Assembly (NCBI GenBank): GCA_023667345.1 | Contig: JAMPAF010000013.1 | Span: 1 to 49,626, forward strand | Length of the DNA stretch: 49,626 nt | Direction: 5' to 3' | Source of the DNA: Clostridiales bacterium | Lineage (GTDB): Bacteria; Bacillota; Clostridia; Christensenellales; Borkfalkiaceae | Program-made: the position numbers and the translations under genes | The notes under the pieces: model-generated | What the model was told of the DNA's origin: nothing | Databases searched by the model: none | Seen by the model: only the letters and a program-made list of their open reading frames with translations | Shown: positions 17,305 to 46,700 of the stretch, in pieces | Numbering within the stretch: the first letter of the stretch is position 1 | Layout: the number at the start of each line of letters is the position of its first letter

Positions 17305-18234
17305 ATGAAGTACGGTAATTGGTTGCAACTATGGCTGAACAACTACGTAAAACCCGCGGTTAAACAACGCACTTACGAGCGGTACGGCGAAATAATCGAA
17401 AGGTACGTGGCGGGCGCGCTCGGCGGGTACGAGATAGAGGAGCTCATGCCCTCGCGCTTGCAGGTGTATGCCGTCGGCATGCTCAAAAGCGGCGGCGCAA
17501 GCGGCGGGGGAAAGCTGCGCCCGAATACGGTGAACTCGATAATAACCGTCATACAGCACTCGCTCAAAGCGGCGTTTGCGGCGGGCGAAGCGGAAAACTA
17601 CGTGGGCGACAGAATTCAGCGCCCGACGGTGCGCAAAAAAGAGATAAGCTGTTTCACGCTCGAGGAACAGCGGCGCATCGAAAGCGAGATTTGCGGCAAA
17701 AAAAGCGTGAAAATGTACGGCGTTATACTGTGCCTATACACGGGGCTGAGGATAGGCGAGCTGCTCGCCCTCGAAAAGACGGACACCGACGGCGAGAAGA
17801 TACGCGTAACCAAATCGTGCAACGACGGCAAGGACGAAAACGGCAGGTTTACGCGGCGGACGGACACGCCCAAAACGCCCTCGTCGGTGAGGACAATCCC
17901 CGTGCCGGAGCGTCTGCGCCCGCTCGTTGAAGAACTGCAAAACCACGGCAACTCGCGCTATCTCATCAGTGCAAAGGACGACAAAATGATTGCGGTGCGC
18001 TCGTACCAGCGCAGCTTCGAGCTTTTGTTAAAGCGGCTGGGCATACCGCATAGGGGCTTCCACGCACTGCGCCACACTTTCGCCACGCGCGCTTTGGAGT
18101 GCGGAATGGACGTGAAAACGCTGTCGGAAATACTCGGGCACAAAAATCCGTCGACAACGCTTTTGCACTACGCGCACTCTCTCGACGAGCACAAAAGCGC
18201 GATGATGAACAAAGTGGGCGATTTGCTCACCTGA
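17305..18234 (+). CDS. Tyrosine recombinase (phage-integrase family)
   Basis: A 309-residue site-specific recombinase. An N-terminal SAM-like core-binding domain (about 1-100, with NTVNSIITVIQHSLKAA) precedes the catalytic domain. Catalytic residues are visible: Arg149 in YTGLRIGELL, His253 and Arg256 in HALRHTFATRA, His279 in ILGHKNPSTT and the nucleophile Tyr289 in LLHYAHS. The size and simple architecture fit XerC/FimB-like or small integrative-element recombinases. GGAGGT sits four bases before the ATG. It lies 138 bp upstream of the DGR reverse transcriptase and 2.9 kb upstream of a promoter bounded by inverted repeats (21098-21274), so it may be the recombinase for that switch. Alternatively it is a remnant of a mobile element that brought in the DGR. 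Confidence 0.92.
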   Translation: MKYGNWLQLWLNNYVKPAVKQRTYERYGEIIERYVAGALGGYEIEELMPSRLQVYAVGMLKSGGASGGGKLRPNTVNSIITVIQHSLKAAFAAGEAENYVGDRIQRPTVRKKEISCFTLEEQRRIESEICGKKSVKMYGVILCLYTGLRIGELLALEKTDTDGEKIRVTKSCNDGKDENGRFTRRTDTPKTPSSVRTIPVPERLRPLVEELQNHGNSRYLISAKDDKMIAVRSYQRSFELLLKRLGIPHRGFHALRHTFATRALECGMDVKTLSEILGHKNPSTTLLHYAHSLDEHKSAMMNKVGDLLT

Positions 18235-18306: not shown

Positions 18307-18335
18307 TTGACGGTGTTCTTGCCGTATGATAAAAT
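18307..18335 (+). promoter_or_regulatory. Promoter of the reverse transcriptase gene
   Basis: TTGACG (18307-18312), 17 bp, TAAAAT (18330-18335). The predicted leader is about 32 nt and carries no clear Shine-Dalgarno site. A second TATAAT lies only three bases before the ATG (18364-18369) without a good -35. Confidence 0.55.
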
Positions 18336-18372: not shown

Positions 18373-19476
18373 ATGATTGATGCAACGTTTGACGAAGTGT
18401 TCACCTTCGAAAATATTTACCGTGCGCATATGCGCGGAAGGCTCGCCAAGCGCGACAAAAAACCGCTCGTAAAATTCGAGGCGGCAATGCTCGGAAATCT
18501 GTACGAAATATACCGCAAGCTCAACGCGGGCACTTTCAGATTAGGCGGCTACAACCACTTCACCGTGCACGAGCCCAAGCGCCGCGAAATTCAGACGCTG
18601 CACTATGCCGACAGGGTGGTTCAGCACGTGCTGTGCGACGAGGTCCTCGCGCCGTACTTCACAAAACGCGCGATTATCGACAACTGCGTGTGCCAGATAG
18701 GCAAGGGCTCGCACTTCGCACTCAGGCGTTTCGAGGACAAACTGCACAACTTTATACGCGTGCACGGGACGAACGGGTACTTTTTAAAGTGCGATATCTT
18801 AAAATATTTTCCGAGTATCCCGCACGACAAACTCAAAGAAATTTTTTGCGGCGAACTTAAAGACGAGCGGTTAAAAGCCCTCGTAAATCACATAATCGAC
18901 AGCTACCACACGAGCGGCGAATACCTCAAAGAGTACGGCTACGACTGCTTCACGCCCGACCCTGTAAAGAGCGGGCGGGGCGTGCCGATAGGCAACCAGA
19001 CGAGCCAGATTTTCGGAATGTTCTATCTCAACAAGGTCGACCGCCTCGTAAAAGAGGAACTGCGCGTCAAAATTTACTCGCGCTATATGGACGACTTTAT
19101 TTTGGTGCACGAGGACAAGGACTTTTTGCGCGACGCGCTTAAAAAAATCACCGAAGCGGTCGCCTCGCTCGGGCTCAAATTCAACTCGAAAACGCAGATT
19201 TTTCCCTTAAAAAACGGCGTAACGTATCTGGGCTTTAAGTACCGCGTCACGCCCGAGGGCAAGGTGGTAAAAACCGTAAAATCGCAGACAAAACGCCGTT
19301 TACGAAGGCGCACCGCGCTGCTCAAAAAGGCGTGCTACGACGGCGTGATAACATCGGAAAGGGTGAGAATGTCGCTCGCCGCGTTCCACGGGCATTTAAA
19401 GCACGGCAAAAATTACAGATTAGAGGGAGAGGTGGCGGCAAAGCTCTATAAAGTCGCGCACGCCGACGGCAAATAA
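18373..19476 (+). CDS. DGR reverse transcriptase
   Basis: A 367-residue reverse transcriptase. I use the ATG at 18373; the longer TTG frame would begin inside the promoter. The palm motifs are FLKCDILKYFPSI (catalytic Asp), GRGVPIGNQTSQIFGMFYLNKVD (residues about 201-223, the hGxxxSQ motif of diversity-generating retroelement enzymes), RYMDDFILV (Y238-MDD) and GVTYLGFKY. There is no maturase X/endonuclease domain and no retron-type VTG motif. The identity as a DGR enzyme rests on the Avd-like gene and the TR/VR pair downstream. In known DGRs this enzyme copies the TR RNA with errors at adenines, and the cDNA replaces the VR in the target gene. Order here is RT, avd, TR, then target 2.5 kb further on. 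Confidence 0.93.
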   Translation: MIDATFDEVFTFENIYRAHMRGRLAKRDKKPLVKFEAAMLGNLYEIYRKLNAGTFRLGGYNHFTVHEPKRREIQTLHYADRVVQHVLCDEVLAPYFTKRAIIDNCVCQIGKGSHFALRRFEDKLHNFIRVHGTNGYFLKCDILKYFPSIPHDKLKEIFCGELKDERLKALVNHIIDSYHTSGEYLKEYGYDCFTPDPVKSGRGVPIGNQTSQIFGMFYLNKVDRLVKEELRVKIYSRYMDDFILVHEDKDFLRDALKKITEAVASLGLKFNSKTQIFPLKNGVTYLGFKYRVTPEGKVVKTVKSQTKRRLRRRTALLKKACYDGVITSERVRMSLAAFHGHLKHGKNYRLEGEVAAKLYKVAHADGK

Positions 19477-19511
19477 GCGGGGAGACCCCCTTTTTGTTAT
19501 TCCGCCCCACC

Positions 19512-19640
19512 GCAGTTATGCCTTACCCCTTTTAAAGGGGGAAGGTGGCTTGCGCAGCAAGACGAATGGGGGTTAATAGAGAAAGCACCCCCATCACCCG
19601 CAGGCGGGAGCTTCCCCCTCAGGTATAAGGGGGAAGCCTT
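19512..19640. repeat. Dispersed repeat (GGGGGAAGG family) between RT and avd
   Basis: Two converging units rich in CCCCCTT/AAGGGGG carry a stem CTTGC-TGC-GCAAG (minus strand) and end with CGCGCAATGACGG. The avd start lies just beyond it. No gene is seen here. Confidence 0.65.
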
Positions 19641-19681
19641 GGTTGCGCGCAATGACGGAAAAATCATATGAAGGTAAAAAA

Positions 19682-20203
19682 ATGGAACAGGATGACCGCC
19701 AGATAACCTTGGAAGAGGTCGAAAAAGAAATTCAGCGCGAGATGCGCATGCCCGAAGCGGTCGGTTTAGAGCCGCCGCCCGTCGAGCCCAAAGACGAGGA
19801 AAACCCCGCGCGCAAGCCATTCCGCATAAAGGACTTCGACAGCCCGCGCGACAAGGAAATGGCGGTTTTCACCCACGCGAAAAAGCTCAGCGAATACATT
19901 TTCGTCATTACCGAAAAATCGCCCAAAAAGCTTCGGTGGAGTATCGTATCGAGGTTGCAGAACGCCTCGGTCGAGATTGTCGAAAACCTCTATCACGCAA
20001 ATTTTGAACGTGACGACGAAAAGCGCACCGCCTACCAAAAGTCGGCGGCAGTGGGGCTGAAAATATTAGATTTTTATTCCGAAACGGCAAGAAAGAAGCA
20101 GGCGATAACCATACGGCAGACGGAAATTATCGCAAGGCAGATAGCCGAAACGACAAAACTTTTGAACGGCTGGATAAAGAGCACCAAAAGAAAAACAACT
20201 TAA
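19682..20203 (+). CDS. avd: Avd-like DGR accessory protein
   Basis: A 173-residue protein from the ATG at 19682, chosen for GAAGGT six bases upstream; the longer frame runs into the dispersed repeat. Residues about 1-55 are acidic and Pro-rich and look disordered. Residues about 58-170 are four helical segments, with KKLSEYIFVITEKSPKKLRWSIVSRLQNASVEIVENLYHAN in the first half. This matches the Avd/23S-IVP-like four-helix bundle that pentamerises and carries RNA/cDNA for the DGR reverse transcriptase. It is longer than typical Avd (about 110-130 residues) because of the N-terminal extension. The gene ends 52 bp before the template repeat, the usual place. Confidence 0.85.
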   Translation: MEQDDRQITLEEVEKEIQREMRMPEAVGLEPPPVEPKDEENPARKPFRIKDFDSPRDKEMAVFTHAKKLSEYIFVITEKSPKKLRWSIVSRLQNASVEIVENLYHANFERDDEKRTAYQKSAAVGLKILDFYSETARKKQAITIRQTEIIARQIAETTKLLNGWIKSTKRKTT

Positions 20204-20255
20204 TACGATAAAGCCGCGGGCAATTCCGCGCTTTTGGGGTGACCGTTCACATCTG

Positions 20256-20375
20256 ACGCTTGGCTCCGTTCCGGTAACAATAACAACGCTAACAACGCTT
20301 ATAATCTGAATTCTTCGGGCGGCAACAACAACAATAATACCTCGACCTCGTATGCTGTGCGTCCCGCGCTTCACT
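20256..20375 (+). other. DGR template repeat (TR)
   Basis: This 120-bp sequence pairs with 23073-23195 in the giant surface protein gene. Read in the VR frame it has 13 AAC/AAT codons: GGT then four, GCT then two, GCT TAT then one, CTG then one, and five after TCTTCGGGCGGC. By my hand alignment about 20 of 28 adenines in the core (20273-20341) differ in the VR, against only two non-A differences (T20275 to G, T20290 to C) and one missing AAC codon. The 3' block (20338-20375, including ACCTCGACCTCGTATGCTG) is identical to the VR and would hold the initiation-of-mutagenic-homing region. Confidence 0.95.
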
Positions 20376-20500
20376 CGCTTGCCGAAGATATCGGCAGGTA
20401 GTTCCCGAATTCGGCATTGTATAAGTACAGCCGAACTGATTTGATTTGAGATGAAGGGAACCGTCGTCCCGCCCGAGCCGTAAAAGGCAACGGTAAAACC
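20376..20500 (+). ncRNA. Spacer of the DGR RNA downstream of the TR
   Basis: About 125 nt without an open frame, linking the TR to a complex hairpin with a T run. In the Bordetella phage DGR the RNA just 3' of the TR is needed to prime and template cDNA synthesis. By position this segment plus the hairpin at 20501-20583 is the equivalent. It contains small inverted repeats (e.g. ATTCGGC/GCCGAA around 20409-20435). Confidence 0.5.
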
Positions 20501-20583
20501 TACTCAACCCTGACTTAACGGACGGCCGCATAAAGCGGCGGCTTTTAAGTCACGAGCTTGCAAAAGCGGTTGAGTATTTTTTT
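20501..20583 (+). terminator. Branched terminator hairpin ending the DGR RNA
   Basis: TACTCAACC (20501-20509) pairs with GGTTGAGTA (20568-20576). Inside it TGACTTAA (20511-20518) pairs with TTAAGTCA (20545-20552), and innermost is GCCGC-ATAAA-GCGGC. Seven T residues follow. It probably ends transcription of the RT-avd-TR unit. Confidence 0.7.
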
Positions 20584-20603
20584 GTGTGTGCAGGGAGAGG
20601 GGC

Positions 20604-20910
20604 GGAATTAAATTGTTCCTTAGACTTGGCTTCCACCTTTTGTATAAGGGGGAAGCTGTCGCGTAGCGGGTGATGAGGGATAAGGAAAATTTTGACCTTA
20701 TTATAGGCTTCCCCTTGGTGGGGAGGCTCCGCGTAGCGGTGGTGAGGGGAATTCTTAAAATAACACCCCTCATCCGTCACTGCCTTATGGCAGTGCCACC
20801 TTCCCCACGTAGGGGGAAGGCTTAATTGCGGGCGAATTTACACAACCCTCATTCGTCTTGACCTTGGCGGTCAAGCCACCTTCCCCCTTTATTAAGGTGG
20901 AAGGCAAGGG
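20604..20910. repeat. Cluster of dispersed GGGGAAGG-type repeats
   Basis: Several converging units of the CCACCTTCCCC/GGGGAAGGTGG family. Two carry a stem-loop before CCACC: CACTGCC-TTA-TGGCAGTG (20783-20800) and CTTGACC-TTGGC-GGTCAAG (20857-20875). No credible gene. Confidence 0.7.
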
Positions 20911-20930
20911 CGCGGCGGCAAGGGATAATT

Positions 20931-20988
20931 GCGCGAACGGTTGGGCATAAATGGGTGTGAATTGTTGCGAATTGCCCGAACGGTCGGG
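20931..20988 (+). promoter_or_regulatory. Pair of CCCGAACGGTCGGG-like motifs, left of switch 1
   Basis: GCGCGAACGGTTGGGC (20931-20946) and CCCGAACGGTCGGG (20975-20988), about 41 bp apart. The motif is nearly palindromic. Matching pairs lie right of this switch and on both sides of switch 2. Confidence 0.65.
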
Positions 20989-21097
20989 GTAAATAAGGTA
21001 AAAAGAGTATTAGAAAAGATTTCTCGATTTCGCTTACGCTCCACTCGAAATGACGTGAATATTATGCCGCGGTTGAAAATATTATAAATTAAAAAAG

Positions 21098-21274
21098 TGT
21101 ACACCAATTAGTATAATTGATGTACATATTTTTTCGAAAAAAGGGCAAAAATGGGCAAAATGTAAGAAATTAACACAATAAAACGACAAAAAGTCTTGAC
21201 TTAGCGATATTTTAGTGATAGAATTCAAGCAAGAGACTGAAAAAGTGTACACCGAATATACTAATTGGTGTACA
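21098..21274. promoter_or_regulatory. Candidate invertible promoter (switch 1), ON orientation
   Basis: TGTACACCAATTAGTATA at 21098-21115 is repeated as its exact reverse complement at 21257-21274. With flanking partial matches the arms extend to about 29 bp (21098-21126 and 21246-21274). Each arm is also an imperfect palindrome (TGTACA at both ends), as expected of a recombinase site bound by a dimer. Between the arms lies one promoter, pointing right toward the DGR target gene 700 bp away. A tyrosine recombinase gene lies 2.9 kb upstream. Alternatively the arms could be operators for a dimeric regulator. Confidence 0.65.
21196..21224 (+). promoter_or_regulatory. Promoter inside switch 1
   Basis: TTGACT (21196-21201), 17 bp, TAGAAT (21219-21224). 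It points toward the 3267-residue surface protein gene. The predicted leader is about 740 nt. I see no promoter closer to that gene. Confidence 0.65.
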
Positions 21275-21303
21275 TTTTGCGCTCTCAAAAAATGTTAATT
21301 TAT

Positions 21304-21363
21304 GCCAACCGTTCGGGCAAAAATGTTGTGAAATAACACATAATTGCCGAAACGGTGCGGCAA
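21304..21363 (-). promoter_or_regulatory. Pair of CCCGAACGG-like motifs, right of switch 1
   Basis: GCCAACCGTTCGGGC (21304-21318, inverted) and TTGCCGAAACGGTGCGGCAA (21344-21363), about 42 bp apart. Confidence 0.6.
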
Positions 21364-21433
21364 TCGGGGCTCTTTTTACCTGCTTTTTGTGAAGTTCGCC
21401 GAGAGTGTGAATTTGGGACAAGAATAAGGTGGT

Positions 21434-21940
21434 TAGTGTCAACCTCTTTCGTCACAACCTTAGCGGTTGCGACACCTTCCCCTTCAAAGGGGAAGGCGAG
21501 AGTGAGGGCGGAGCGTCTTGCTTTCCCCTTACGCAAAGGGGAAAGTGGCACCGAAGGTGACGATAGAGGTTGCCGCCCTCGGGAATAGGAACCAACCTCT
21601 TTCGGACTGCGTAATTCTGGATTGCCGCGGCGGTAAACCGCCTCGCAATGACGGTGGACGGAGAGGGCGGAATGACGGTGACGGGGAATAGATTCTTCAC
21701 TGCGTTCAGAATGACAATATAGGGAACGTTTGGACGGTGGGATGGTGACGCGATTGACCTACGGTAACAATCGCTATTCCGTCGCGTTGCTCCTTACGAC
21801 TACGCTCACCATGACATATAAAAACGAATAATTTAGACTGCGTAATTCTGGATTGCCGCGGCAACAAGTTGCCTCGCAATGACGGGGGCGGGGGCGGGGG
21901 CGGAAAAGATTCTTCGGCAAGCCTCAGAATGACGGAAAAA
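21434..21940. repeat. Cluster of dispersed repeats in the leader of the DGR target gene
   Basis: Contains a CGTCACAACCTTAGCGGTTG unit with CCTTCCCCTTCAAAGGGG (21450-21497), two half-elements ATTGCCGCGG...CCTCGCAATGAC (21615-21653, 21847-21883), a CGACTACGCTCACCATGAC segment (21797-21815) and TTCTTCGGCAAGCCTCAGAATGAC-type units. No gene is supported. All this would lie in the 5' leader if the promoter at 21196 drives the gene. Confidence 0.7.
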
Positions 21941-21973
21941 AATAAAACTTCGATTTGATGGGAGTTATGTTAT

Positions 21974-24900
21974 ATGAAAAAGAATAAAACTTTGAGGAAG
22001 GTGTTGATGGCGACTTTGCTGCCGATTGGCGCGGTCGTTATCGGCGCGACGGCGATTGTCGGGGCTATCCTCGGCACGAACGGCGGGAAAAAGCTGCCGC
22101 TTTCCACGGCGGAAAGCACAACCTCGGTCAGCTCGACGACAATCAATCTCGACGTGAACAAGACCGCGAGCACGTACTCAATCGACAAGAACAGCCGAAC
22201 GGGCGTGCAGGAATTAATTAATTATGTCGCGGGCGCGAGCGCGAACATTAATTATAATACTTTAAGCACGGATATGGAAAGCTGGAAGGGGTCGGGCAAT
22301 CTGTCGTCGACGACCACCAAAACAAAGACGGCGGATAAGTTCACGGCGAAAACGGTCACCTTGGGCGGCATCGTGTGGAACGTAATGTATGTTTCCAAAG
22401 CCGACTACACTGCGAACGGCACGACGGCGGGCGATATTATCGTAACCTTGTGGCAGGCAAATTCCGACGCGAACTATATGTCGGCGTACAACCCTTGGTA
22501 TGCGGACACGCCCAACGCAAGATATCCCTCGGCAATGTACGGTTCGAGTTTGGTGAGAAGCACGCTTAACGGCACGTCGTACGTGGCGTCAAACGGCGCA
22601 ACCACGCTTACGGCGGGCACGCAGAATTCGCACTGGGCGCCCTTTACGAGGAATTCCGTGCACAGCGCGACGGGCACCGTAACCACATCGGGCTTTTCCG
22701 AGGTTTTGGCAACGCCCGCAAATATGCTTTGGCAAAAAACACAGCGCAGTAACGACGGCTCCAACGGTTCGTACCCTTGGTATTTCCCCAACGACGCGTG
22801 GGACGCTTCGACTTTGCCCGCGTCGAACTGGGGCACCAACGGCTGGTATCAGAAAACTCTGAACAGTGCGACTGTTAATTATAACTATTCCGATAACGGC
22901 GACGCAACCACTTATGCAGCATGGAAGAACGACTATCTGTGGCTTCCTTCGATGGTAGAAACAGGCTGGAACGACAGCAACTATTCGAATAAAAACGGAA
23001 CGGCGGGTTCGGGTATTTGGAACGCTTCCGCGTCTCAACGTGCTACGAACGTTAGTTCGGGTAATGCGCAATACGCTTGGCTCCGTTCCGGGCGCGATCT
23101 CGACGCCTCCTACGCTTATCGTCTGAGTTCTTCGGGCGGCTACGCCGGCAGCCCTAGTACCTCGACCTCGTATGCTGTGCGTCCCGCGCTTCACTTAAAT
23201 CTTAAATCTGCCGCGCAAGCGGCGGGGCTCTTCGAGCAAAAAATCACCTACCACACGGCGTACGGCAGTGCGCCGACAACGCTTGACAAGTACGCGCCGG
23301 GGGCTACGACCGAGCTGCCCGAGCCTACGGACTGGGCGAGCGCGAGCGGCGCGGCGAATTTAGAATTTGTCGGCTGGTCGAAGGGCGGCTACGGCAAAAC
23401 GCCCGTCATCACGTCGGTTGAAGATGAAGATGACGAGCTGGATTTGTACGCGGCATTCAAGCCCAAGGCGGCTTCTGCCGCCTCGAGTCTGGCGGAAAAT
23501 TCTTTAAACTTAAACGTTACATGCGGAGTCGCGAACGCTACGTTGTCCGCGACGGTTTCGCACGCCCTTTCGGGGGACGGCGTGACGGTTTCGACCTACT
23601 GGAAGAAGGAGGGGTCGGACACAAAACTTGGCGAGAGGTCGGGGTCGGCGGCGGAGCTTGTCATTGACGAGCCCGCCATTGCCGACACGGGCAAATATAC
23701 ATTATACTACACATTGACGCCGAACGGGACGTTGGCGGGGAAGGGCGTTATTGCGCTTTCGGACGTGAAAGCCCTCGACTTCGATTTGAAGGTTTTCGGG
23801 GCGGCTTCGACGGTGGAAACAAACCCGACGTTCAAGGACAAAATTTACGTCGGTCAAGCCATATCCCCGGGGCAACTTACGGGCGGCGTGGTAAAATCGG
23901 GCGGAAATACGATTGCGGGTACGTGGGCTATTTTAACCGAGGGCGTGTACAAAAAGGGCGCGACAGTTGAGGCTGAATTTACGCCGACGGACGAGAATAT
24001 CGCGCCCGTGAAGGCGACCTTAGACCCGAAGGCGGAACAGCTTACAATCACCTTGAACGAGGTGGTGCCCGAGGCGACGACGGCGGCGGGACCTATCGGC
24101 AGCGGCGTTACGATTGACGTTGACTACGGCACGGGAATTGCCTTCCAGTTTATCAATAACGACAACAGCGCGGTTATCGAATTTTACGTGCGGCAGGACG
24201 GCGTTTGGCACGGCGGTCCCGAGGCGGACGACGTTCCTCCCGTGCAGTACAGGCTGGCTTCGCCCGCGGGCTACATACCTTTCGTGTACTCGACGGACGA
24301 CAGCTCGAAAGAGCACATCAATTTAGCGGTTGAGAATATCACCGAGAGCAAGAAGCTGACGGTTGCTTATGAAGCCGACCTGCGGCACTTTGCGGTATAC
24401 TATATTTTACAGCCCACAACGGGCGACTACACGAGCGCGACGACGGCAACGGCGTTGAACGCGCTACTCGGCAACGGCTATGTTTACCGCTATGCGGGCG
24501 AGGCGTACACGGGTTCGACGGTGGAGGCGTTCGACGATTCGGGCAAGCCTTTGAACAGCGACCTTGCGAACGATTCGACCTTTGAGTGGCGCGAGCTCGA
24601 CACGGCTAAAACGGGCGCGGCTCCCAAGGTTCGCGGCGAGGGAACGGAAGCCGACCCGACAATTTATCTTGTATATTACAAGCTGAAAGAATACGAGATT
24701 AAGTTCTCGGCGGCGGGGGCTTCGCCTTCGAGCCAGACGCTCACTTTAAGGCACAACCAAATCATTTCGTTGGGGGATATTACGGCACCTACGAAGGATT
24801 TGAGCACTTTTGCGGGGTGGTATAAAGACGAGGCGTTGACCGTGCCCATGGGGCAGAACGAGTTGGTTGACGGCAAGACGACCACGTACTTTGCGAAGTT

Positions 24901-33015: not shown

Positions 33016-33621
33016 ATGGTGTACGCATACGGGCGCGTGAGCGCGGCAGACCAGAATTTGAACAGACAGATTGACAGCTTTATTCAGTTCGGCGTGGGCA
33101 AGGCGCAAATTTATACCGACAAAAAATCGGGCAAGGACTTCGACCGCGAAAACTACCGCCGCCTTAAAAGTATATTGCAAAGCGGCGATTTGCTCGTCGT
33201 AAAATCAATCGACCGCTTGGGGCGCAACTACGATATGATAATCGAGGAGTGGGCTGACATCACCCGCCGCATAGGCGCGGACATTTTCGTTATGGATATG
33301 CCCCTTTTAGACACGCGCACCAACCGCGAAAACCTTACCGGCAAACTCATATCCGACCTCGTTTTGCAGATACTTTCCTACGTGGCGCAAAAGGAGCGCG
33401 AAAATATCAAGGTGCGCCAAAAGGAGGGGATAGCGGCGGCAAAGCGGCGGGGCGTAAGGTTCGGTCGCCCCGAGATAGTTCAGCCGACCGACTTCACGGT
33501 CACGGCGACGCAGTTCAAAAACGGGACAATCTCGTGTGAAGAGGCGCTTGCGCGGACGGGCATGAAAAAGTCGACCTTTTACAGCCGTTTAAAATCTCTC
33601 GACGGCGACGCCTACGGCTGA
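33016..33621 (+). CDS. Small serine recombinase (resolvase/invertase family)
   Basis: A 201-residue recombinase. The catalytic domain starts MVYAYGRVSAADQNLNRQ with the nucleophile Ser9. It continues with LKSILQSGDLLVVKSIDRLGRNYDMI (Arg of the DRLGR motif), then the long E-helix region VLQILSYVAQKERENIKVRQKEGIAAAKRRGVRFGRP. A C-terminal helix-turn-helix (SCEEALARTGMKKSTFYSRLKSL) binds the site. This is the size and layout of Hin/Gin-type invertases and Tn3-type resolvases; sequence alone does not separate the two. AGGAG lies 12 bases before the ATG. It sits between the two giant surface-protein operons, 547 bp before an inverted-repeat-bounded promoter (34168-34313), so a role in flipping that promoter is plausible. 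Confidence 0.9.
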   Translation: MVYAYGRVSAADQNLNRQIDSFIQFGVGKAQIYTDKKSGKDFDRENYRRLKSILQSGDLLVVKSIDRLGRNYDMIIEEWADITRRIGADIFVMDMPLLDTRTNRENLTGKLISDLVLQILSYVAQKERENIKVRQKEGIAAAKRRGVRFGRPEIVQPTDFTVTATQFKNGTISCEEALARTGMKKSTFYSRLKSLDGDAYG

Positions 33622-34784: not shown

Positions 34785-37700
34785 ATGAACAACAAGACGA
34801 CTAACAATGCCACGAGGCGCGAGAGCGTGAAGCGAGGGGATGGTTCGACTACGCTCACCATGACGCAAGCGCGCGGCGCGGCGGCAAGCAAAGTTAAGTG
34901 GACTAAAAAGTTTAAGGCGGTGATAATTTCACTCAGCCTTGCCTTTGCAGTCGCGCTCGGCGGCGCGTTCACCGCGGTCGGCGTAACTCTTGCAAATAAA
35001 AACGCGCTCCGCGGCGGCACGTTCGCAGGCGGCGTTGCCGACGATAATTCCGTAACGCCCCCCTCGTTTGCCGAGGGCGAGACGGTCGAAATTAAAACCG
35101 CCGCAGACTGGGCAACCGTCATCGCGGCTCAAAGCAGTGCGGACAGTTACGCGGTGGCAAAGCTTACGGCAAACCTCACCGCAAACTCTTCAACGCACCT
35201 GTTCGGCGAGGGCACGGCAAATACCGACCCTTACTATAACGGCGCACTCAATGTGCCCGCGGGCAAATATGTCATACTGGACTTGAACGGCTACACCGTC
35301 AACCGCGGACTTACCGAGGCAACGGAAAACGGCTCGGTCATCACCAACTACGGCAACCTCGTCATTAACGATACAAGCGCGAAAGCCAACGGCAAAATCA
35401 CGGGCGGCAACAACTCGGGCAAGGGCGGCGGCGTTTATACCGAAGGCACCTTAACGATTTTGAACGGTTCGATTACCGCAAATACGGCTCGTTTCGGCGG
35501 CGGCGTTTATACCACGGGCAATTTAAGCGCTTACGGTGGCAATATTGACAATAACAAAGCAAAAGCGATTGACCCCGACGGTTCGGCAACCGACTATGAT
35601 AACGGCGGCAGAGGCGCGGGCATACTTGCGCTCGGCGCAAACGTAATACTTACGGGCACGGCGAAAGTCAACTCCAACGTCGGCGATACCGACGGTGGCG
35701 GCGTGCATGTCCGTGAAAAATCGAGCCTTACTATGGGCGGCACCGCTGAAATTTGCAATAACGTTGCGAACACTGTTGCGGGCGGCATTTACGTTATTCA
35801 CAGTTCGACGTTCACAATGAACAACGGCAAAATTTCCGGAAACAGCACGGTTATAGGTGACGGTGCCGGCGTATGTATCAGCAACGGCACTACTGTTATA
35901 AACAGCGGTGAAATTTCTAACAACTCCGCAGGGTTAAACGCCGGCGGTATTTATTGCGGTAGCGGCACTTTAACCATAAACGGCGGTACTATATCCGACA
36001 ATACGGCAAACACCGATAGGGGTTGCGGCGGCGGTATTGAAGCCGTAAAAACAAAGGTAATAATAAAAGACGCAATTATCGAAAACAACAGCGCGGCGGA
36101 CGGCGGCGGCATTTACGTAGCACAAGGTCAGGCGGCGAACGGCGAGTACGATTTAACCATAAGCGGCAATACGGTATTTACCAAAAATACGTCGAAAAGT
36201 GGCGGTGGCGGCGTTTATATAAATTCGTCGAAACTCCTTATAGAAAGCGGTACGATTACCGAAAACTCAGCTACGAGAGGCGGCGGCATTCAATTTACAA
36301 GTGGCAGTTCGGGAAATATTATCGGCGGCACGATTTCGGATAATGTCGGAAGCGTTGCCGGCGGCGGCATTTACGAGGCGGCAGGCGCAACGCTTGTAAT
36401 CGGTTCTGAGGACGGAACAAAATATCCCACGTTTACAGGCAATAAGAATGTATCAAGTAACAGTGAATATTATGGCGGCGGTGCGATTTATCAAGGGATA
36501 AAATCGGAGCTCACCATAAATAACGCTGTCATGAATAACAACTCTACGACTTCACGCGGCGGCGCAATTTATGTGGCGGGCAGCGCACGCAGCGAAGCTG
36601 CGGACGAAACCAAGCGCAACACAATCACGATAAAAAATATAACTGTCAACAACAATTCTGCGGTCAGATACGGCGGTGGTTTATACACATATTACTGTGT
36701 TGATGTTATTGTAGAGAAAGGCATTTTTTCGAATAACGTTTCCGAAAATGCCGACGGCGGCGGTTTATTAACTAACGACGACTGCACTCTCGTTTTAGGC
36801 ACCGAGAAAGGCGATAAAGAAGCGGTTCAATTTATCGGCAACTCCGCAAATAACGGCGGCGGCGTATTTGCCGGCTCCGCAACAATATGGGGTGCAAAAT
36901 TTTCGGAAAACAAAGCAAACAAAGAGGCTGGCGGCTTCTTTTGCCGTGCAACAAATTCAACCGTTGTTGAAGATTACTTTAACGGGGCTACCATACATAA
37001 CGCAACCGTAACCGACAACACTTCGGGCACTCACGGCGGCGGCGTGTATATACAGGGTACAGCAACTGTTACTATTGAAAACATTACCGTTACTGATAAT
37101 ACGGCAACCGACGGCGACGGCGGCGGTATTTTCTCGGCGGGCGATTTGACCGTGAAGAGCGGCACCATTTCGGGCAACTATGCGGGCGGTGCAATTGACG
37201 CGGGCAGTTATAAAAATATGCGCGGCGGCGGTATATGGCACCAAAAGGGCGCGCTCATTATCGGCGACCCCGACGACGACAAAAAGGTTGTCAATTTTAC
37301 CGATAATAAGGCGGCATGGTCGGGCGGCGCAATATATGCATACAGCGGCACCATTACGGCTCTCGATATCTACAACGCCAAATTCGAAAATAACCAAGCA
37401 ATAGGCGGCGACGGCGGCGCAATCTGCGCGGTCTCTACGCCTTCCTCTGTAAACTCGACAATTAAGGGCTGCGAGTTTAAGGGCAACACGGCGACGAGCA
37501 GCGGCGGCGCACTGTATAATACGGGCGCGGCAACATATAACTACGAAAACGTTGTCGTTAAAAACAACACCGCGGGCTCTAACGGCGGCGGTTTCTACAA
37601 TACTTCGCCCGTCAATATAACGGGTTCGACGATTACGGGCAACTCGGCGCGCAGTTACGGCGGCGGTATTTACGTTGGCGGCAACACCACAAGGGTTACC

Positions 37701-40700
37701 GACAGCACAATCGGCGGCACAAAGGCGTATAATGCGAACGCGACCGACAAAACGGACATGGGCAACAGCGCGCAAAACGGCGGCGGCATTTATAACGGCG
37801 GCGCGTTAGATTTGACAAAAATCGTAATTTCTGGCAATACTGCCGTGAACGACGCGGGCGGCATATATCAAAACGGTAAGTTACGTATTCTCGGCAAGGG
37901 TGGCAATCCCGACGGTGCTGGCGCGGTGCAGGAAATCTGCAACAACGAGATAAAGGGCAACACCGCGGGGCAGCTTACCAACAACCTGTATTTCGCAAAG
38001 AATAAAGGTCTTGAGATACATTGTTATCCCAGACAAGATATGCCCGACGTCGGTATTTCCATGGCAGAGCCGGGCAGATTCATAACCGGTTGCGCTGAAT
38101 ATGCGGACTTCAAAAACGATGGCACGCAAAAGGGCTTCTTCCCCGACAATAAAGACAATTATCAGATTGTACAGACGGTGGAGAACAGCAGATATAGCTA
38201 TGATTTGAAGAGCAAGATTTCCGGCACGATGGCGGAAAGATGGGTTGCGGCGATTAACGCTTCCAAAAATAACGGCGGCGCACAGCAGGTCTTCGAAATG
38301 ACCGACAACTGGACGGCGAACGCTTCGACGGGTTTCGGCACGGCGGGCACTACCGGCTTCGGTACAAGCGGTGCGCTGAACGTTCCCGAAGGCGCGAACA
38401 TTGTTCTCGATTTAAAGGGTTATACCTTAGACAAATCTGCGGCAACAGGTACCGTCATCTACGTTTTGGGTACGCTTACCATTAAGGGTTCGGGTACGAT
38501 TACGGGCGGTACAGTCGGAAGCGGCGGCGGCGCGTTAGCCGTATACAGCGGCAATCTTACCTTAAACGGCGGCACAATCAAGGGCAATACGTCCGGTGGG
38601 TACGGCGGCGCGGTGTGCGTTGACAGCGCCGGCACGTTCACCATGAACGGCGGTTCGATTGTCGGCAACACGGCGACGGGCAACGGCGGCGGCGTATACG
38701 TGGATAAAGCAACGTTTACTATGAACGGCGGTACTATCGGCGGTTCGGCGGCGAACAAGAACACCGCGACGAACGGCGGCGGCATATATGCGCAAGGTAA
38801 TTCCAACGTTACCATTAACGGCGGCACTATTTCGTATAACTCCGCGACGAATACCGACAACAGCGGCAGCGGCGGCGGTTTGTATTTAAACAGTTCTAAT
38901 CTCGTGATGACGGGCGGCACTATCTCGAACAACACTGCGGATGACGACGGCGCGGGCATTTGCATGTCGGGTACAGCTACTATTTCGGGCGGCAGAATTA
39001 ACGATAACGCAACCACGCTTACGAACAGCGGTCACACGGGCGGCGGCATTTTTGTCAGCGGCACGAACACAACGCTCAATCTTACGGGCGGTTCGGTTCA
39101 GAACAACGTTGCATGCCAAGGCGGCGGCATTTTTGTAACGAGCGGCGCGACCCTGAATTTGGGCGCAGTCAAGACGGAAAACAACAAAACCACTTACAGC
39201 GGCAGCGCGGTTATCGGCAACAACAGATATACTTCCAGTGCAGGCGGTATTTGCATAGGCACAGGCAGCACTCTGAATTTCTACGGCGGCACTACTGCGG
39301 GCAACTATGTTGTTACGGCAAGTGCGCCCACAACTAAGGTCACCTCGCCCGCGAGCGGCGTGAACGGCGGCGGTATATACAATAACGGCACCGTCAAAAT
39401 GTACGGCGGCACGATTTCCGGCAACTCGGCTTACAATGGTGCGGGCGTTATCGATGTTAACAACGCGACATTCGATATGTACGGCGGCGAGATTTCGGGC
39501 AATACCGCAACATCAACGGGCGGCGGCGTATACGTACACTCTAACGGCGCGTTCAATTTAAACGACGGTAAGATTTCGGGCAATACCGCAACTACGGGCG
39601 GCGGCGTTTATCAGGGCTCGCAATTCTATATGAGGGGCGGCGAAATTTCGGGAAACACGGCGAACGCCGGCGGCGGTTTATACAATGGGGCGTGGTATTC
39701 CCAAATGGATAACGGCGTTATAAAGAACAATACTGCAACGAAAGCTGACGATAACTCAAACGCACTAGGCAGCAACGTTTACACGGCGGGCAGATTCTGG
39801 ATGAAGAACGGCACGATAACCGTTTCGGGCGGCACGGCAAATTGTATAGCTACCGGCGTATACGTTGTATCAAGTCAATATACGTCGAATAAATTTGCGT
39901 TTGAATTTTCGGGCGGCACCATTACAAAATCTGCGTCCGACACGGGACATATGCGCGCAATAGTAGTAACCGCTACGGGCGTAGTCAATATGTCCAAAGG
40001 AGAGGTTACGGGCTTTAGTTCAAACGATAAAGATTATACGCCGATTGTGGTCTATAACGTTTTCAATATGACTGGCGGCTCGGTTCACAACAACTGCGTG
40101 GTTTCAAACGGCGGCGCATTCTTAGTTAAACCCGAGGCTTCGCTAAACGTTTCGGGTTCCGCAAAAATTTACGACAACACCGCAGGCACGGTTGGCGGTG
40201 CGGTTTACATTGCCGAAAACGGCGAATTGAATGTATCCGGCGGCACGATTTATAACAATACGGCAGGAACCAGCGGCGGCGCGATTTACGTCGCGGGCGG
40301 AACGTTCACTATGAGCGCGGGCACGATTTCGGGCAATAAGTCGCTGAGCACAGCCAACGGTACGGGCGGCGGCGGTATTTGTATTGTAGACGCAACCGCA
40401 ACCATTACGGGCGGCACGTTCGATAGTAACCATTCGGACGGTCACGGCGGCGCGATTTACTTAAAGGACGATTCCGAAAATTCCGCATCGGCTATCATTT
40501 CGGTGCAAGGCGCAACCTTTACGGGCAACACCTCGGGGTTGGACGGCGGCGCGCTCAATATAAGCGGTGACGTTACGGCTCTTTCCGACTGTACTTTTAC
40601 GGGCAACACCTCTGAAAGAAACGGCGGCGCGGTTATGATTTGGAGCAAGAGCGAAATAACCGTTTCCGACATTACGATAACAGGCAACCGCTCTAACTCA

Positions 40701-43700
40701 CTTTCGAGCGGCGGCGGTGGCGGCGGTCTGGTTTTAGGTAACGGCGTAAAAGTTACTTTACAAAACGCTGAAATTTCCGACAACTACGCGGAATTAGACG
40801 GCGGCGGCATAGGCATATCAAATTCCACCTTAATATTCGGTGCGAACGTTACGGTTTCCGGCAACACCGCGGAAGGTAGCGGCGGCGGTATACGTGTTAG
40901 TCCGAACAACACTACGTTCGAGTTCAGAGCGGGCACCATTTCGGGAAATACCGCGACGAACGGCGGCGGTGTGTACAACGCGGGCACGACCAATTTCTAC
41001 GGCGGCGACGGCGCGCCCTACGACGTATTCGTTACGGGGAACACGGCAACGGGCAACGGCGGCGGCGTTTACATTGCGAGCGGAGCTACCTCTAATTTCT
41101 ACGGCGGTCAGATTGACGGCAACACGGCAACCGAAAACGGGGGCGGTGTATACAATGAGGGCACGTTCACTGTGAGCGCGGGTGTTATCGGCGGCGCAAA
41201 CGCATATGACGCGAGCGCGACAGACAAGTCGGATATGGGTAACTTTGCGGGTTACAACGCCGGCGGCGTTTATTTGGCAAAAGGCGCGACATTCGGCTTA
41301 AAAGGCGCAATCGTAAGTAATCATGCCGAAAACCTCGGCGGTGGTATTTACAGTAACGGCAACGTCAATATGACGGGCGGCGAAATCAGTAAAAATACTA
41401 CTACGCACGGCGCGGCGGGCATTTATCAGCAAACTCCCGGCACGTTCACAATGACGGACGGCGCTATTTCCGATAACGTAGCGGGAACGCACATAGGCGG
41501 CATTCTTGTTGCAACCAACGCCACTTTCGTAATGAGCGGCGGCGAAATCACGGGCAACACCGCAACGAGCGGCGTTTGCGGCGGCGTTTGGGTAGACGGA
41601 ACGTTCAACGTTTCAGGCAAGGTTATCATTGAAGATAACGAAAATTCGGACGGCGGACTTTCGAACGTATATCTTAACACAAATAAGAAAATTAATATTA
41701 CGGGTACGTTGAATGCGACTTCGGTCATCGGCGTTTCGGCGGCTGACGCAGAGAGCGGGCGCGTGCTTACGAGCGGGCTCAATTCGAAGGGCGGCATTGC
41801 GACGACGGCTTTCGGCGACGTTATCATTGCCGACCAGGACGGATATTCGATTAAAAATATCGGCGGCGAGGCGGCTTTGGGCGAGACGGTTTCCGTAACT
41901 TTGACGAGCGTCGGCTTGAAGGGCGACCGCGAAGAGGTCACCAAGCTTTGGGTTGACAAGGGCGGCAACATGACCTTTGACGTGAGCAGGGGCACGAACA
42001 TGTTTACGTTCAACTACACCTACGCGAGTGCGACGGCGGGCGCGTTGAACAAGATGACGAAGGTGACGGCTCCCACGCCCGACGGATATGAACCGTACCT
42101 TACGCTTGCGGGAAGCGACGGCGAGGGCGAGCTTACGAACGAGCTGTTGCAGAACATTTCGGCGGCTAAGGAAATCGAGATTCACTACCGCGCGATAGAG
42201 GTTGAGTACGTTGTTTACTACCTGTTGCAGAAACCCGACGGCACGTATTTCGAGCCGACCGAGAACCTCGGGTACGACGCGGCGGCGGGCTCGAACAACC
42301 CGTACGTGGAAAAGGCGTTTGTGAAGGGGTTGACCGACACGTATATCAAGCCGTTAGCGGAAGGCGGGTTGCCCCACGCGACGACGAACGAGTTCCTGCA
42401 CCCCGAAGAGTATACTCTGGACACGGGCAAGCCTTTGGACACGACGGAAAGAATTGCGGGCGACGGCTCGACCGAGGTTGTGGTTTACCTTAAACTCAAC
42501 GAGTATACGGTGACTTACAGGGCGGACGGCGACGCGGTACCCGCTACGCAGACGAGAAGGTTGAGGTACGGGGCGGCGCTGGTTGCTCCCGCGCGTGAAC
42601 CGAACCTGCCTTTGAGCACTTTCGTGGGCTGGTACCTTTCGACGGACGAAACGCAGACGGTCATAAATTTTGCGACGACCGATTTGACGGTTACGGGCAA
42701 TATAACCCTGATTGCCAAGTTCGATATGGAAACGTTCCATGTTTACTTCGATATGAACTTAGGCACGGGGGAGAACCAGTTGCCGAGAAACACGCAGTTG
42801 GTTGTGCGCACGAACGACGGTCTGAGCGAGATAGGCACATACGCTGCATGGAATTACGAAGGTTTATTCCCCGCAGAGAGCGGATTCAATTTCAGATACA
42901 ATACCGAAGAGGTTGAGGGAGTAGACGCGGCGGACGTGTATGTTATCGACTACACGATTGTCAATATTCCCTACACGAAGAGCATAAGAACGCCTGTACC
43001 TACCGCGGTCGGTTACACTTTCAGCGGCTGGTACATAGGCAACAGACAGGTCAACTCTATCTATGCGCCTTACGAGGGTATGAGCGACGAGGAAAAGAAC
43101 ACCGTTCTGACGGCGCACTGGACCCCGACACTCTATAACGTAAGCTACGACAAGCAGGACGGAAGCTGGAATCCCGTTATCACCAAGCAGGCGACGAACG
43201 GCGACAGTCTTGAAAACGTTCTGCCCGAAGAGCCCACGAGAACGGGCTATGTGTTCGACGGCTGGTACATAACGACGGACGTTGTCGGCGGCACGACGGT
43301 AGAGGACGCAATGAGAGGAACGGGCAGATTTGCAGTAGGCAATATTGCCAATCTGTACGGCAACGCGGAAGAGGGATACGATTTCAGCAATATCACCTTC
43401 TATGCGAAGTGGAACAGCGTGGACGTTTACATTAACTGCGCTACGGGCAGTTTCGGCTCGCTCAGCTTTGCAAACGAGAACAACCACAACGGCACAATCG
43501 GCGTGGCGGCGCAGGCTATGCACGTGGGCGACACCGTAAGAATTTCGGCTACGGTTGCCAACGGCTATAAGTACGACCACATTACCGTTACGGCGACTAC
43601 CGCTACGGGCGCAACCCGCGAGTACACGTTCACCGACGAGTTCGTGATAAGGGATACGTACCTTAAAGACTACACGTTGAACGGCAACGACTACAAGGTT

Positions 43701-46700
43701 GTTGAGATTACGCCGACCTTCTCGGAGCAGAGTTACACGATAACTTACGTAATCGACGGCGGCACGAGTACGAGTACGGGCTTTGCGCGTACGTACACTC
43801 CGTCGAGCCTTATAGACGACCCGAGCAACAGGAACAGAACCACTTTGCCCAACCGTCTGACCAAGCAGGGTTACGACTTTATGGGCTGGAAGTTCACCGA
43901 CAGCGGCGAGAAGGCGTTCTTAACGGACAGCGGCGTCGACACGACGAAGGATTTGTTCGGCGAAACGCTGTATCTCGACGCGCCGACCAACGAAAACGGC
44001 AACGTTGTTTACCGCAACATTTCGCTTACGGCTATATGGGAAGCACAGCCCGCGACGGTTTATCTCTACACGTTTATAGGCTCAATCGATGTTTATCCGA
44101 ACTATGACGCGGATAACGAGTGCTATATTCTGGACGAGAGCGAAGGAGCCAAGACGGACGCTACGATTTATATTCAGAATCCCGAGCGTACGAGCTTCGA
44201 CTTCCTCGGCTGGGCGACGAGCCGCAACGGCGTTGTGGTTTATCCCGCAGAAGAGGGCTCGGATACCATCGAATACAAGGTCAGCGCGGATTACGACGTC
44301 AACAAAAAGCCGCTCAACCGCAACAACCTGTATGCGGTATGGCACATTAAGGGCGTTGACCGCGTAAATATATCGGTTGCCAACAACGGCACGACGTACG
44401 GCGGTTCGGGCATAACCATGACGGCTACCCCCGCACAGTCCTACGACGCGGGCGACGGCGCGGCGATTACGCTTACCTACAAGTGGTACCGTATATTCGG
44501 CAATTATGACGATTGCTTCACCGTGGGCTCGGTTTACATTAACGACGATAAGGTTACTGGCTATTCGTTCGAGGAAAACGGCGTAATGACCTATTACGAC
44601 GCGTACATGAACAAGCTCGAAAACCAGTCGCAGATACCTGCGGGCGAGGCGTTTGAATACAGACGCTTTGACGAAAGCAGCGCGGCGGGCACCAACGACG
44701 ATTTGGAAAATACCGATAAGAACTGCGTGCTTGTTTCGACGCAACCCAACAGCGGCGAGAAGGCGACGCTGACCGTAAAAAACGTGAACGACTGCGGCAT
44801 TTATGTGTGCGTGGTCGAGGTTACGGCGACTATCGGCGGCGACGCTACGACGAGGACGGGCGGTTACGGCGAGATTGAGATTTCGATGAGTAAAGCCGTT
44901 TACAATAACCTCACTTTGTCAAACGTGACGACGACGTACAATGCGGAGTCGCAGGCGGAGAAGATGGTGCTTGCCCGCAGAAGCACGACCGACGGTTCGT
45001 CGTTCGAAGCGGACGAGGACGGCATTATAAGGTACGTAAAGTTACCCGACGGTTGCAGAGTTATGGTAACTTACAGCTACTACACGCTGACGGGCACGAC
45101 GCGCAACGACATCGCCGACCTTAACGAAGTTAAGAATGTGGGCACGTACTACGTGGAAGTAACCTTCGCGTTTGCGTCCGACGGCACCGACAAGGGTAAC
45201 TACGAGCCTCTTGCAAAAATGGAGGCGGAGCTTGTAATCACCCCGTTCGAGATTAACTCGATAAGCTATACTTTCGTTCACGGCGAGGAGCGCGACACCG
45301 AAAACTTCAACGGCGATTACGACGGCGAGGCGTACACGGTAGAGGCGGCTATTAACGACAGGTTCGACCACGGCAACCGCGTCGTGACCGAAATAAGCGA
45401 CGTTAAACTTACGGTTATCGTAAACACGGTCAACGAAAACGGCGACACGCAGATTGCGGCAAACAGACTGCCCACCGTTGATTCGGGCAGTTACAGCGTG
45501 CAGGTAACCGGTTTAGAGGGCGCAGACGCGGGCAACTTCGTCTTGAAGAGCACCAATCTGAGGAAAGAGTACTCGATTGGCAAGAGCGTTTACGAGGTAA
45601 GCGGACATATCCACCTTATAAGCAGGACGGACGAGTATGACGACAATGAACACATTCTCGAAATAACGTTCGACGAGGGCTACTCGCTGCCCGCCACCGT
45701 GACCGCGCGCTACACGACGGAGTACGAGACGGAATACGACGGCTTTACCGACAGTTCGTTCAACCCCAATTCCAACGTGGGCACGAACGCTGGCGTTTAC
45801 ACGGTAACGGTTGAGTTTGTGGACAGCGCGTCGGCAAACTATATGCCGCTCGAAAGCATGACGGCAACCCTTACAATCAAAAAAGTCAACCTCTTCGAGC
45901 ATTTCGAAGAATATCACGGAGTAGACCTTTTGGACCAGGCGGGCTTTGTCGGCGGTTCGTACGCATACACAGGCGAGACCATGCTGCCCAACATTAACAG
46001 CAACCTCGACTGCGAGCTCAACAAGGACAAAAACTTTAAGGTAACTTACGAGTATTATCTGGTTGACGACGACACGGGCGCGAGGACAAAGCTTGACAGC
46101 AGAACTATCGACGAACCCGGCAAGTACGAGATTGTCGCCAAGATTGCTTACGCGAATGCAACCTACCGCAACAACTTCCTCGAAGTACAGGACAACGAAA
46201 GTACCATAACCTACGTTATCCGTAACTTTGACGTTACCGGTATTACGGTTGTGTTTACCGATGAGTTCGAAAGCAGCGGCAGGATAGTCAAGCTCGGCGA
46301 AACATTCAAGCACGAGTGGATTAAGGAAATTGTCGTCGAGTACACGGATAACGAGAGCGGTTCGCAGGGTACGCGCCGCATGGTTGACGACGAAGATATT
46401 GCTTTGGCGCTTTTGAGCTACGGCAAGAAGAGCGCGGGCGACAGCAGCGAACAGACTTCGTTCTGGCACGTGGGCACGTTTGACATACGCGTCAGCGTAT
46501 ACGGTTCGGGCGAAGGCATAGGCGTATATCAGGTAACCGTTAAGCAGGAAATCGAAGAAGTCGAGCTTTTGTACCGCGTAGCGGGTTCGGGCAATTCGTT
46601 TGCGCCTATCCCCGAGGACGGGCTGGAACTTCTGACCGAGGGCGAGTACGAGTTCATAATAACTTACGACTGCGTAACCGACGAAGGCTTGGAAAGCTCC

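Follow-up and report, generated by a model that had tools for sequence, protein, structure and literature searches.

We analysed a 49,626-nt stretch of DNA (the window; contig JAMPAF010000013.1 of assembly GCA_023667345.1, a Clostridiales bacterium of the family Borkfalkiaceae) that carries a diversity-generating retroelement (DGR). An earlier note on this DNA had described the DGR as complete, with a template repeat (TR), a variable repeat (VR), a reverse transcriptase (RT) and an Avd-like protein, and all of these parts are present at 18373-23195. Beyond that note, we describe here a template-RNA domain, a hairpin 3' of the VR, a predicted invertible promoter of the target gene and, in relatives, template arrays and cassette archives. 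Related loci and genomes are cited by our L and G numbers.

The GNQTSQ and YMDD motifs reported earlier are located in the RT, whose best sequence match in the PDB is 8ub7, which we take to be the RT of the BPP-1 DGR. NCBIfam profiles match it only with other RT groups, all below threshold. The Avd-like protein lies before the TR, as had been stated, and is matched by bAvd PF22296 at 47.7 bits (cut-off 40; 2.5e-12) and by phrog_3206, 'Avd protein of DGR' (2.1e-19); counting against this assignment, the profile NF033474 stays below its cut-off of 80 with 58 bits (9.8e-16). RT matches were found in 34 of the 200 genomes searched (own genome included), many of them distant, and 32 loci lie in genome contigs. 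After removal of duplicates, the working set consists of 30 loci of the closest RT clade, that is, the window and 29 others. Avd stands within 0.6 kb 3' of the RT in 28 of these 29 related loci, the exception being L067, where the contig ends after the RT. The genes upstream in the window look chromosomal (Spo0A, TilS and MgsA/RarA-type). A phage origin was considered and rejected: viral contigs gave four pattern matches to the RT, none of them confirmed, and 120 phage and 54 plasmid records hold matches of less than 60% identity only.

The TR aligns with a VR in a giant gene, and this is its sole long match within the window. In the gapped alignment, 19 of 32 TR adenines differ in the VR compared with 2 of the 87 other bases (Fisher p = 1.1e-11, which is a guide only because the aligner penalised mismatches at A less than others). 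The earlier note had counted about 20 changes among 28 adenines of the core, two changes elsewhere and an identical 3' block of 38 nt; the last two stand as given, and the first is close, with 19 or 20 changes depending on gap placement. Both non-A changes concern T bases at third positions immediately before AAC codons, none of the VR adenines derives from a non-A base of the TR, and the VR is longer by one codon (3 nt), located in a run of AAC. The VR frame divides the TR into 39 codons, of which 13 are AAY and none has A in third position; changing A alone reaches no stop codon, in line with the earlier claim of a stop-safe template. A whole-genome search with the TR gave seven matches. Five of them are short (14-24 nt, E of 1 or more) and the remaining two are the TR itself and the VR; no further VR was found in the window's own genome. 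Past the identical block TR and VR can be told apart, given that after CTTCAC most TR units continue with TCR and the VRs with TTAAATCT-like sequence; the TR units that deviate are those of L078, L082, L083 and L086.

Adenine specificity beyond the window was assessed on TR/VR pairs of related species. Over 11 single-template pairs of the RT clade, the window included, 166 of 357 adenines are replaced compared with 13 of 953 other bases. The pairs other than the window's give, for A versus non-A, 22/36 versus 4/99 (L058, flank included), 18/37 versus 0/83 (L063), 19/31 versus 2/88 (L071), 12/34 versus 1/86 (L072), 10/32 versus 0/84 (L076), 12/33 versus 0/88 (L078), 13/30 versus 1/96 (L081), 16/35 versus 2/79 (L086), 13/32 versus 1/78 (G011) and 12/25 versus 0/85 (G049). 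This sum excludes multi-TR loci, VRs without a clean parent TR and five distant RTs, and the G010 pair, the VR of G080 (cut by the contig end) and that of L066 (cut at 90 nt) were kept out of the counts as well. For the distant RTs the figures are 12/25 versus 5/91 (L051), 11/37 versus 2/72 (L053), 16/29 versus 7/108 (L055), 26/42 versus 2/85 (L056) and 14/29 versus 7/79 (L057). The VRs without a clean parent TR weigh against the DGR reading, with 16/25 versus 10/85 in G081, 11/22 versus 14/88 in G040, 12/25 versus 9/85 in G067 and 15/26 versus 18/84 in the second target of G021; the first G021 target, also without a clean parent, has 12/26 versus 14/84.

Table 1 Features of the DGR locus in the window, with their positions and the basis of each assignment.
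Feature	Position	Strand	Basis and remarks
Tyrosine recombinase gene adjoining the RT	17305-18234	+	PF00589 1e-21; candidate recombinase, presumptive link to the inverted repeats
Promoter-like site upstream of the RT (TTGACG-17-TAAAAT)	18307-18335	+	Consensus match only
DGR reverse transcriptase (RT)	18373-19476	+	RVT_1 5.2e-16; phrog_1423 4.7e-94; 8ub7 ('Reverse transcriptase') E 4.1e-38
Avd accessory protein	19682-20203	+	PF22296; phrog_3206; NF033474 below cut-off
Template repeat (TR)	20256-20375	+	13 AAY codons; alignment to VR and codon reading
Template RNA 3' domain	20366-20583	+	28-sequence covariation; single-sequence fold; covariance-model searches
Pairing of TR 3' end with the domain	20366-20376 with 20448-20456	+	Covariation alignment
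Hairpin and helix in the template RNA domain	20377-20399; 20410-20415/20430-20435	+	Covariation alignment
Terminator helix and run of T	20501-20509/20568-20576, to 20583	+	Covariation alignment
Left inverted-repeat arm	21094-21132		Palindromic, recombinase-site-like
Promoter-like site TTGACT-17-TAGAAT	21196-21224	+	Between the arms, toward the target; consensus match
Right inverted-repeat arm	21240-21278		Inverted copy of left arm
Target gene, 3267 aa	21974-31777	+	Open reading frame (ORF); domain search; termini read by eye
Variable domain (DUF6273)	22352-23242	+	PF19789 in 17 of 24 aligned homologues
Variable repeat (VR)	23073-23195	+	Residues about 367-408 of the target; alignment to TR
GC-rich hairpin 3' of the VR (GCCGC-GCAA-GCGGC)	23210-23223		Stem search after VRs

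The target protein has a signal-peptide-like N-terminus, DUF6273 over the VR and Flg_new repeats, and at its C-terminus a hydrophobic segment precedes KKRKGARK. This layout would put the VR at the membrane-distal end. DUF6273 is the only assignment obtained for the variable domain, a candidate for a C-type-lectin fold; searched with a profile of 24 homologues, the solved structures in the PDB gave no significant relative (best E 1.4). After 16 of 17 VRs there is a GC-rich hairpin with a stem of 5-7 bp and a loop of 3-4 nt, compared with 14.6% of 446 background windows that reach 5 bp; these counts are not independent because the sites are homologous coding sequence. The hairpin starts 15 nt after CTTCAC in 13 VRs and 13-16 nt after it in the other three, and L072, L076, L086 and L186 have stems that differ in sequence. 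Only the VR of the second G021 target lacks the hairpin, and it is also a VR without a parent TR. A second giant ORF of 4939 aa in the window (34785-49604; beta-helix, Flg_new and Big_3) has a C-terminal anchor sequence in common with the DGR target, and its matches to the TR are chance hits of only 14-25 nt. At L185 in G011, a single frame of 3198 aa holds three tandem domains resembling the variable domain of the target.

Downstream of the TR, a domain of about 210 nt recurs in the clade; it forms the 3' part of a structured, covarying template RNA of which the TR is the 5' part. The domain is present in 38 units (10 units without it were set aside), of which 33 have a recognised end and 28 were aligned, leaving out the near-copies L066 7120 and L069 3571 as well as L049, L082 and L083; a first alignment (A2), in which the GAAGGGG block was shifted, was not used. 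The RNAalifold structure has 43 pairs, with 95.8% of 1202 cells paired and 23 pairs changed on both sides, compared with 35.6-45.2% paired and 6-12 pairs changed on both sides when the partners were slid by 1-3 columns, a test that favours the RNA structure because the structure came from the same alignment. The 3' end of the TR, GCGCTTCACTC, pairs with GAG.TGAAG of the domain; given that seven of the nine pairs are invariant, this helix rests on pairing and not on covariation. Directly after the TR, 37 of 38 units have a hairpin (P1) of at least four pairs, with 26 distinct stems in the 38 units. Because the alignment of P1 is poor, it was tested sequence by sequence, which gave a mean of 5.5 Watson-Crick pairs versus 3.6 in shuffles, many single tests being non-significant. 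The window sequence alone folds largely into the same structure (z -3.7).

An Rfam search gave no match at the gathering threshold. A covariance model built from the domain finds one copy in the window's own genome and copies in 16 of 93 genomes of the genus, of which nine (window included) supplied model sequences and seven did not; in the family, under stricter filters, it finds 18 of 398 genomes. Weak model matches in G067 (L137) were inspected, fall on dispersed repeats like repetitive extragenic palindromes (REP-like) and were not counted as templates. Similar palindromic repeats occur in the window at 20600-21900, where they are dispersed and of two kinds, CTTCCCCC...GGGGGAAG and GATTGCCGCGG...CAATGACGG; in G067 repeats similar to these lie near cassettes and cause the weak matches.

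In relatives, the template unit is often multiplied. At least two TR units are present at 10 of the 30 RT loci: six at L066, four at L069 (one cut) and L070, three at L060, L046 (one cut), L049 and L079, and two at L061, L073 and L077. The TRs lie on the strand opposite the RT in L073 and L079 and on both sides of it in L077. These loci are scattered over the RT tree, in which the window groups with L058, L059 and L062, all of them single-TR. Judged by eye, the arrays of L066 and L069 repeat a unit of promoter-like site, TR, domain and terminator, and in L060, L061, L049 and L070 the RNA domain follows the last TR only. The parent of the VR can be picked out by its non-A differences: it is TR1 in L060 (1 versus 13 and 10) and L061 (2 versus 7), and TR2 in L066 (1 versus 3-9, with the VR cut at 90 nt and 12 gap columns in the two lowest rivals). 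In L060 and L061 the parent is the TR furthest from the RNA domain, a position that would require read-through, later rearrangement or switching of strands within the 3' block that the TRs share.

Between TR and target, the window has two inverted-repeat arms of 39 nt (85%), 107 nt apart. The 18-mer common to the arms occurs nowhere else in the genome at up to three mismatches, and the reversed control gave one chance match. A scan for such repeats covered 18 targets, 16 of them evaluable; L072 and L081 are uninformative because the ORF start was called at the VR. Repeats at or above the threshold of 23/28 were found in 8 of the 16 (window, L058, L060, L061, L063, L076, L171 and L173), compared with none of 180 shuffled sequences (two-base steps, shuffled in blocks) and one of 132 other windows, which were unscreened. 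Of the targets below the threshold, L071 reaches 22/28 and seven others 18-19. At each of the eight loci, the enclosed segment contains a site resembling TTGACA/TATAAT that points at the target (a consensus match without shuffle control). A relative of the window's tyrosine recombinase lies near the RT in six loci counting the window, upstream in L058, L062, L063 and L046 and downstream in L059. By genome, such a relative is found in five of the eight with repeats (window, L058, L063, G011 and G081) and in none of the seven without (L071, L078, L086, G049, G067, G021 and G040), with a one-sided Fisher value of about 0.02 for matches at E 1e-8 in the DNA around the loci only.

The segment at 21094-21278 thus has the layout of a tyrosine-recombinase inverton and is a predicted invertible promoter. 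Several observations weigh against this prediction. L060, L061 and L076 have repeats, yet no recombinase relative was found nearby; three of the eight segments also hold a weaker promoter match pointing away from the target; and all eight stand in the ON orientation (one assembly each), when free inversion should give some OFF. We call the switch predicted because both orientations were not found among the eight loci. The repeats might instead be two operator palindromes around an ordinary promoter, with no invertible segment, and the palindromic nature of each arm (8-11 of 11) and the promoter-like site toward the target at every locus would fit that. The palindromes have asymmetric centres, however, and at all eight loci the centre of one arm is matched in inverted form by that of the other; the arm core TAGTATA is found in only four loci and is different in the other four, and there are the recombinase relatives near the RT, so we regard operators as rather unlikely. 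Elsewhere in the window, between the two giant genes (33016-33621), lies a serine recombinase similar to the Mpi DNA-invertase family, possibly a second inversion system.

Two relatives, G021 and G067, carry large sets of silent cassettes, mostly A-depleted, besides one Avd match and one close RT each. A WLR-anchor pattern matches 57 times in G021 (14 contigs), 45 times in G067 (13 contigs) and twice in the window's genome, and its reversed control matches in none of the three; a two-anchor pattern gives 55, 46 and 2. Counted among these matches are the two expressed VRs of G021 as well as the A-rich TRs (three in G021, four in G067). With a wider motif there are 60 copies in G021 and 45 in G067, which leaves 55 and 41 cassettes after subtraction of VRs and A-rich TRs. 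All 96 cassettes have a length that is a multiple of three and no in-frame stop, and 26 differ from the modal length of 108. Base shuffling would leave 66 of the 96 with a stop (38 in G021 and 28 in G067), a null that is too harsh because AAY ancestry lowers the stop expectation; the length result is independent of it. The clusters look noncoding by inspection, and in L136 each unit meets a stop after RPALH. At the first four variable codons, T occupies 78% of the third positions in G021 and 60% in G067, which is what descent from AAT would produce. Pattern and covariance-model searches found no cassettes in the window's own genome besides TR and VR, where collapsed or missing arrays are possible because the assembly is 83% complete. 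At L069 (3030-4262), the first TR is A-rich and the next units are A-poor at the same positions, with promoter-like sites of their own; this array is intermediate between a template array and an archive. A further genome, G037, has six anchor matches and template cassettes with RNA domains (L131-L134, L163), and no RT or Avd match was found in it.

In both relatives an expressed VR has an exact counterpart among the cassettes. In G021, 114 bp of the VR are identical to a cassette on a different contig, none of the 17 adenines in the tract being changed; in G067, 116 bp are identical to the first cassette of a six-cassette array, again with none of the 14 adenines changed. For the second G021 target no exact cassette match was found. 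Both identity tracts stop at the borders of the block common to cassettes and VR. At the error measured for the BPP-1 RT per template A, 30.65% (PMC12875486), the probability of zero A changes is 0.002 for G021 and 0.006 for G067, and at the 46.5% of the clade it is about 2e-5 and 2e-4. With values this low, ordinary mutagenic retrohoming from the cassette is probably not how the exact copies arose. Exact tracts are also shared from cassette to cassette, 52 nt within one cluster of G021 and 75 nt between contigs of G067. In both genomes, within what the contigs cover, the matching cassette heads its array behind a promoter-like site, and the current VR may be stored at this leader end.

The archives and exact VR copies suggest, from their sequences, a DGR coupled with a cassette archive in these relatives. 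The cassettes, which concern the relatives and not the window, could also be passive DGR debris, that is, A-mutated copies decaying in noncoding DNA. Those closest to A-rich TRs do differ from them mostly at A, with 7/23 versus 3/87, 11/26 versus 4/84 and 10/23 versus 2/87 (plus a 3-nt gap) in G021 and 12/26 versus 3/84 and 11/25 versus 4/85 in G067. Most other cassettes have no close A-rich parent (7-14 non-A changes among the next 13 listed for G021). Debris is nevertheless an unlikely account of 96 cassettes that are all in frame and free of stops, 26 of them at non-modal lengths, and of the exact copies of 114 and 116 bp of an expressed VR and the cassette tracts of 52 and 75 nt. It is quite improbable that the VR/cassette identities are assembly or binning artefacts of metagenome-assembled genomes. 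G021 consists of about 180 contigs with 3% contamination, and a contig end is about 335 nt away from its matching cassette; against this, the identity is seen in two genomes independently, and the G067 cassette lies inside a 31-kb contig at the head of its array. A misjoin at usual k-mer lengths would also be unlikely, because the flanking shared block is short (about 16-23 nt by eye).

Taken as a whole, the window locus is very probably best explained as a chromosomal DGR. The RT and Avd would copy a dedicated template RNA, the TR with its folded domain to 20583, into cDNA with errors at adenines, and the cDNA would replace the VR, so that the membrane-distal domain of one giant surface protein varies and the rest stays fixed. 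By analogy with phage BPP-1, cDNA synthesis may start near the junction of TR and RNA domain, and the hairpin 3' of the VR may mark the recipient. Judging from the promoter architecture, inversion of the segment between the arms probably turns the target gene on and off as well, perhaps via the tyrosine recombinase encoded at 17305. In sister species, the template unit has been multiplied into arrays; in two genomes it has also given rise to silent in-frame cassettes, archived at dispersed sites. We infer that the window's element is active at present. That it is a fossil, with an old VR and an element no longer working, is very improbable, given that the two non-A differences and the codon of length difference speak for some drift since the last transfer, but the reading frames of RT, Avd and the 3267-aa target are open, the RNA domain agrees with the family model, the hairpin and promoter-like site are kept and non-A divergence is only 2 in 87. 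We lean slightly towards a broader reading for the clade, in which the RT clade unites on one surface protein A-mutagenic retrohoming as a source of new variants, an invertible promoter as on/off control and, in some species, a genome-wide archive of in-frame, A-depleted cassettes that exchanges exactly with the expressed VR: the DGR would write, and recombination or unmutated retrohoming would store or recall.

The window's DGR resembles that of BPP-1 in RT family, Avd, A-specific replacement from TR to VR and the GC-rich hairpin 3' of the VR. It differs in being chromosomal, in the order RT-Avd-TR-VR, in a VR near the N-terminus of a giant anchored protein, in a template RNA with a terminator-like end, in the predicted invertible target promoter and in a shorter hairpin stem (5 bp). 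Phage DGR hairpins have stems of 7-10 bp and 4-nt loops, 4-34 bp after the VR (PMC3240598). Several TRs per DGR are already known (PMC6642488): a single TR serves 216 of 271 multi-VR DGRs, leaving about a fifth with more than one; Stenotrophomonas SKA14 has two TRs and six VRs; and Pseudomonas costantinii has six TRs in 91 TR-VR pairs, called atypical, with few A-to-N changes. Unlike these, the relatives studied here have up to six TRs in a row for few VRs, and two of them have dispersed A-depleted cassettes; the window itself has one TR. In the relatives only, the silent cassettes, the one expression site and segmental copying recall Borrelia vls, but their cassettes descend from DGR templates, the clusters end in a template RNA domain and the genomes carry an RT of the A-mutagenising type. 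The inverted repeats around a promoter-like site, with a recombinase gene near and upstream of a surface protein, resemble gut invertons (PMC11892184), except that the gene switched here would be a DGR target and the inversion is a prediction from sequence architecture. Literature searches on DGRs with multiple or tandem TRs, silent cassettes or gene conversion, archives and invertible promoters found no title or abstract that reports these combinations, which does not establish their absence from print.

With one TR and one VR, the window alone is an ordinary DGR in an unusual lineage, a gut Clostridia genus. What the clade brings in addition is a switch, as predicted from sequence, a template RNA of defined structure and, among the relatives, arrays of templates and archives of cassettes. 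Two questions become accessible to testing in it. One is whether past variants can be remembered by a DGR; the other is the build of a DGR template RNA outside phage BPP-1, for which a covarying structure from 28 sequences and a working covariance model are now at hand. In this clade, diversification by a DGR is moreover linked with a predicted on/off switch acting on one and the same gene; a gut bacterium would thereby be able to change whether it displays the protein as well as which version.

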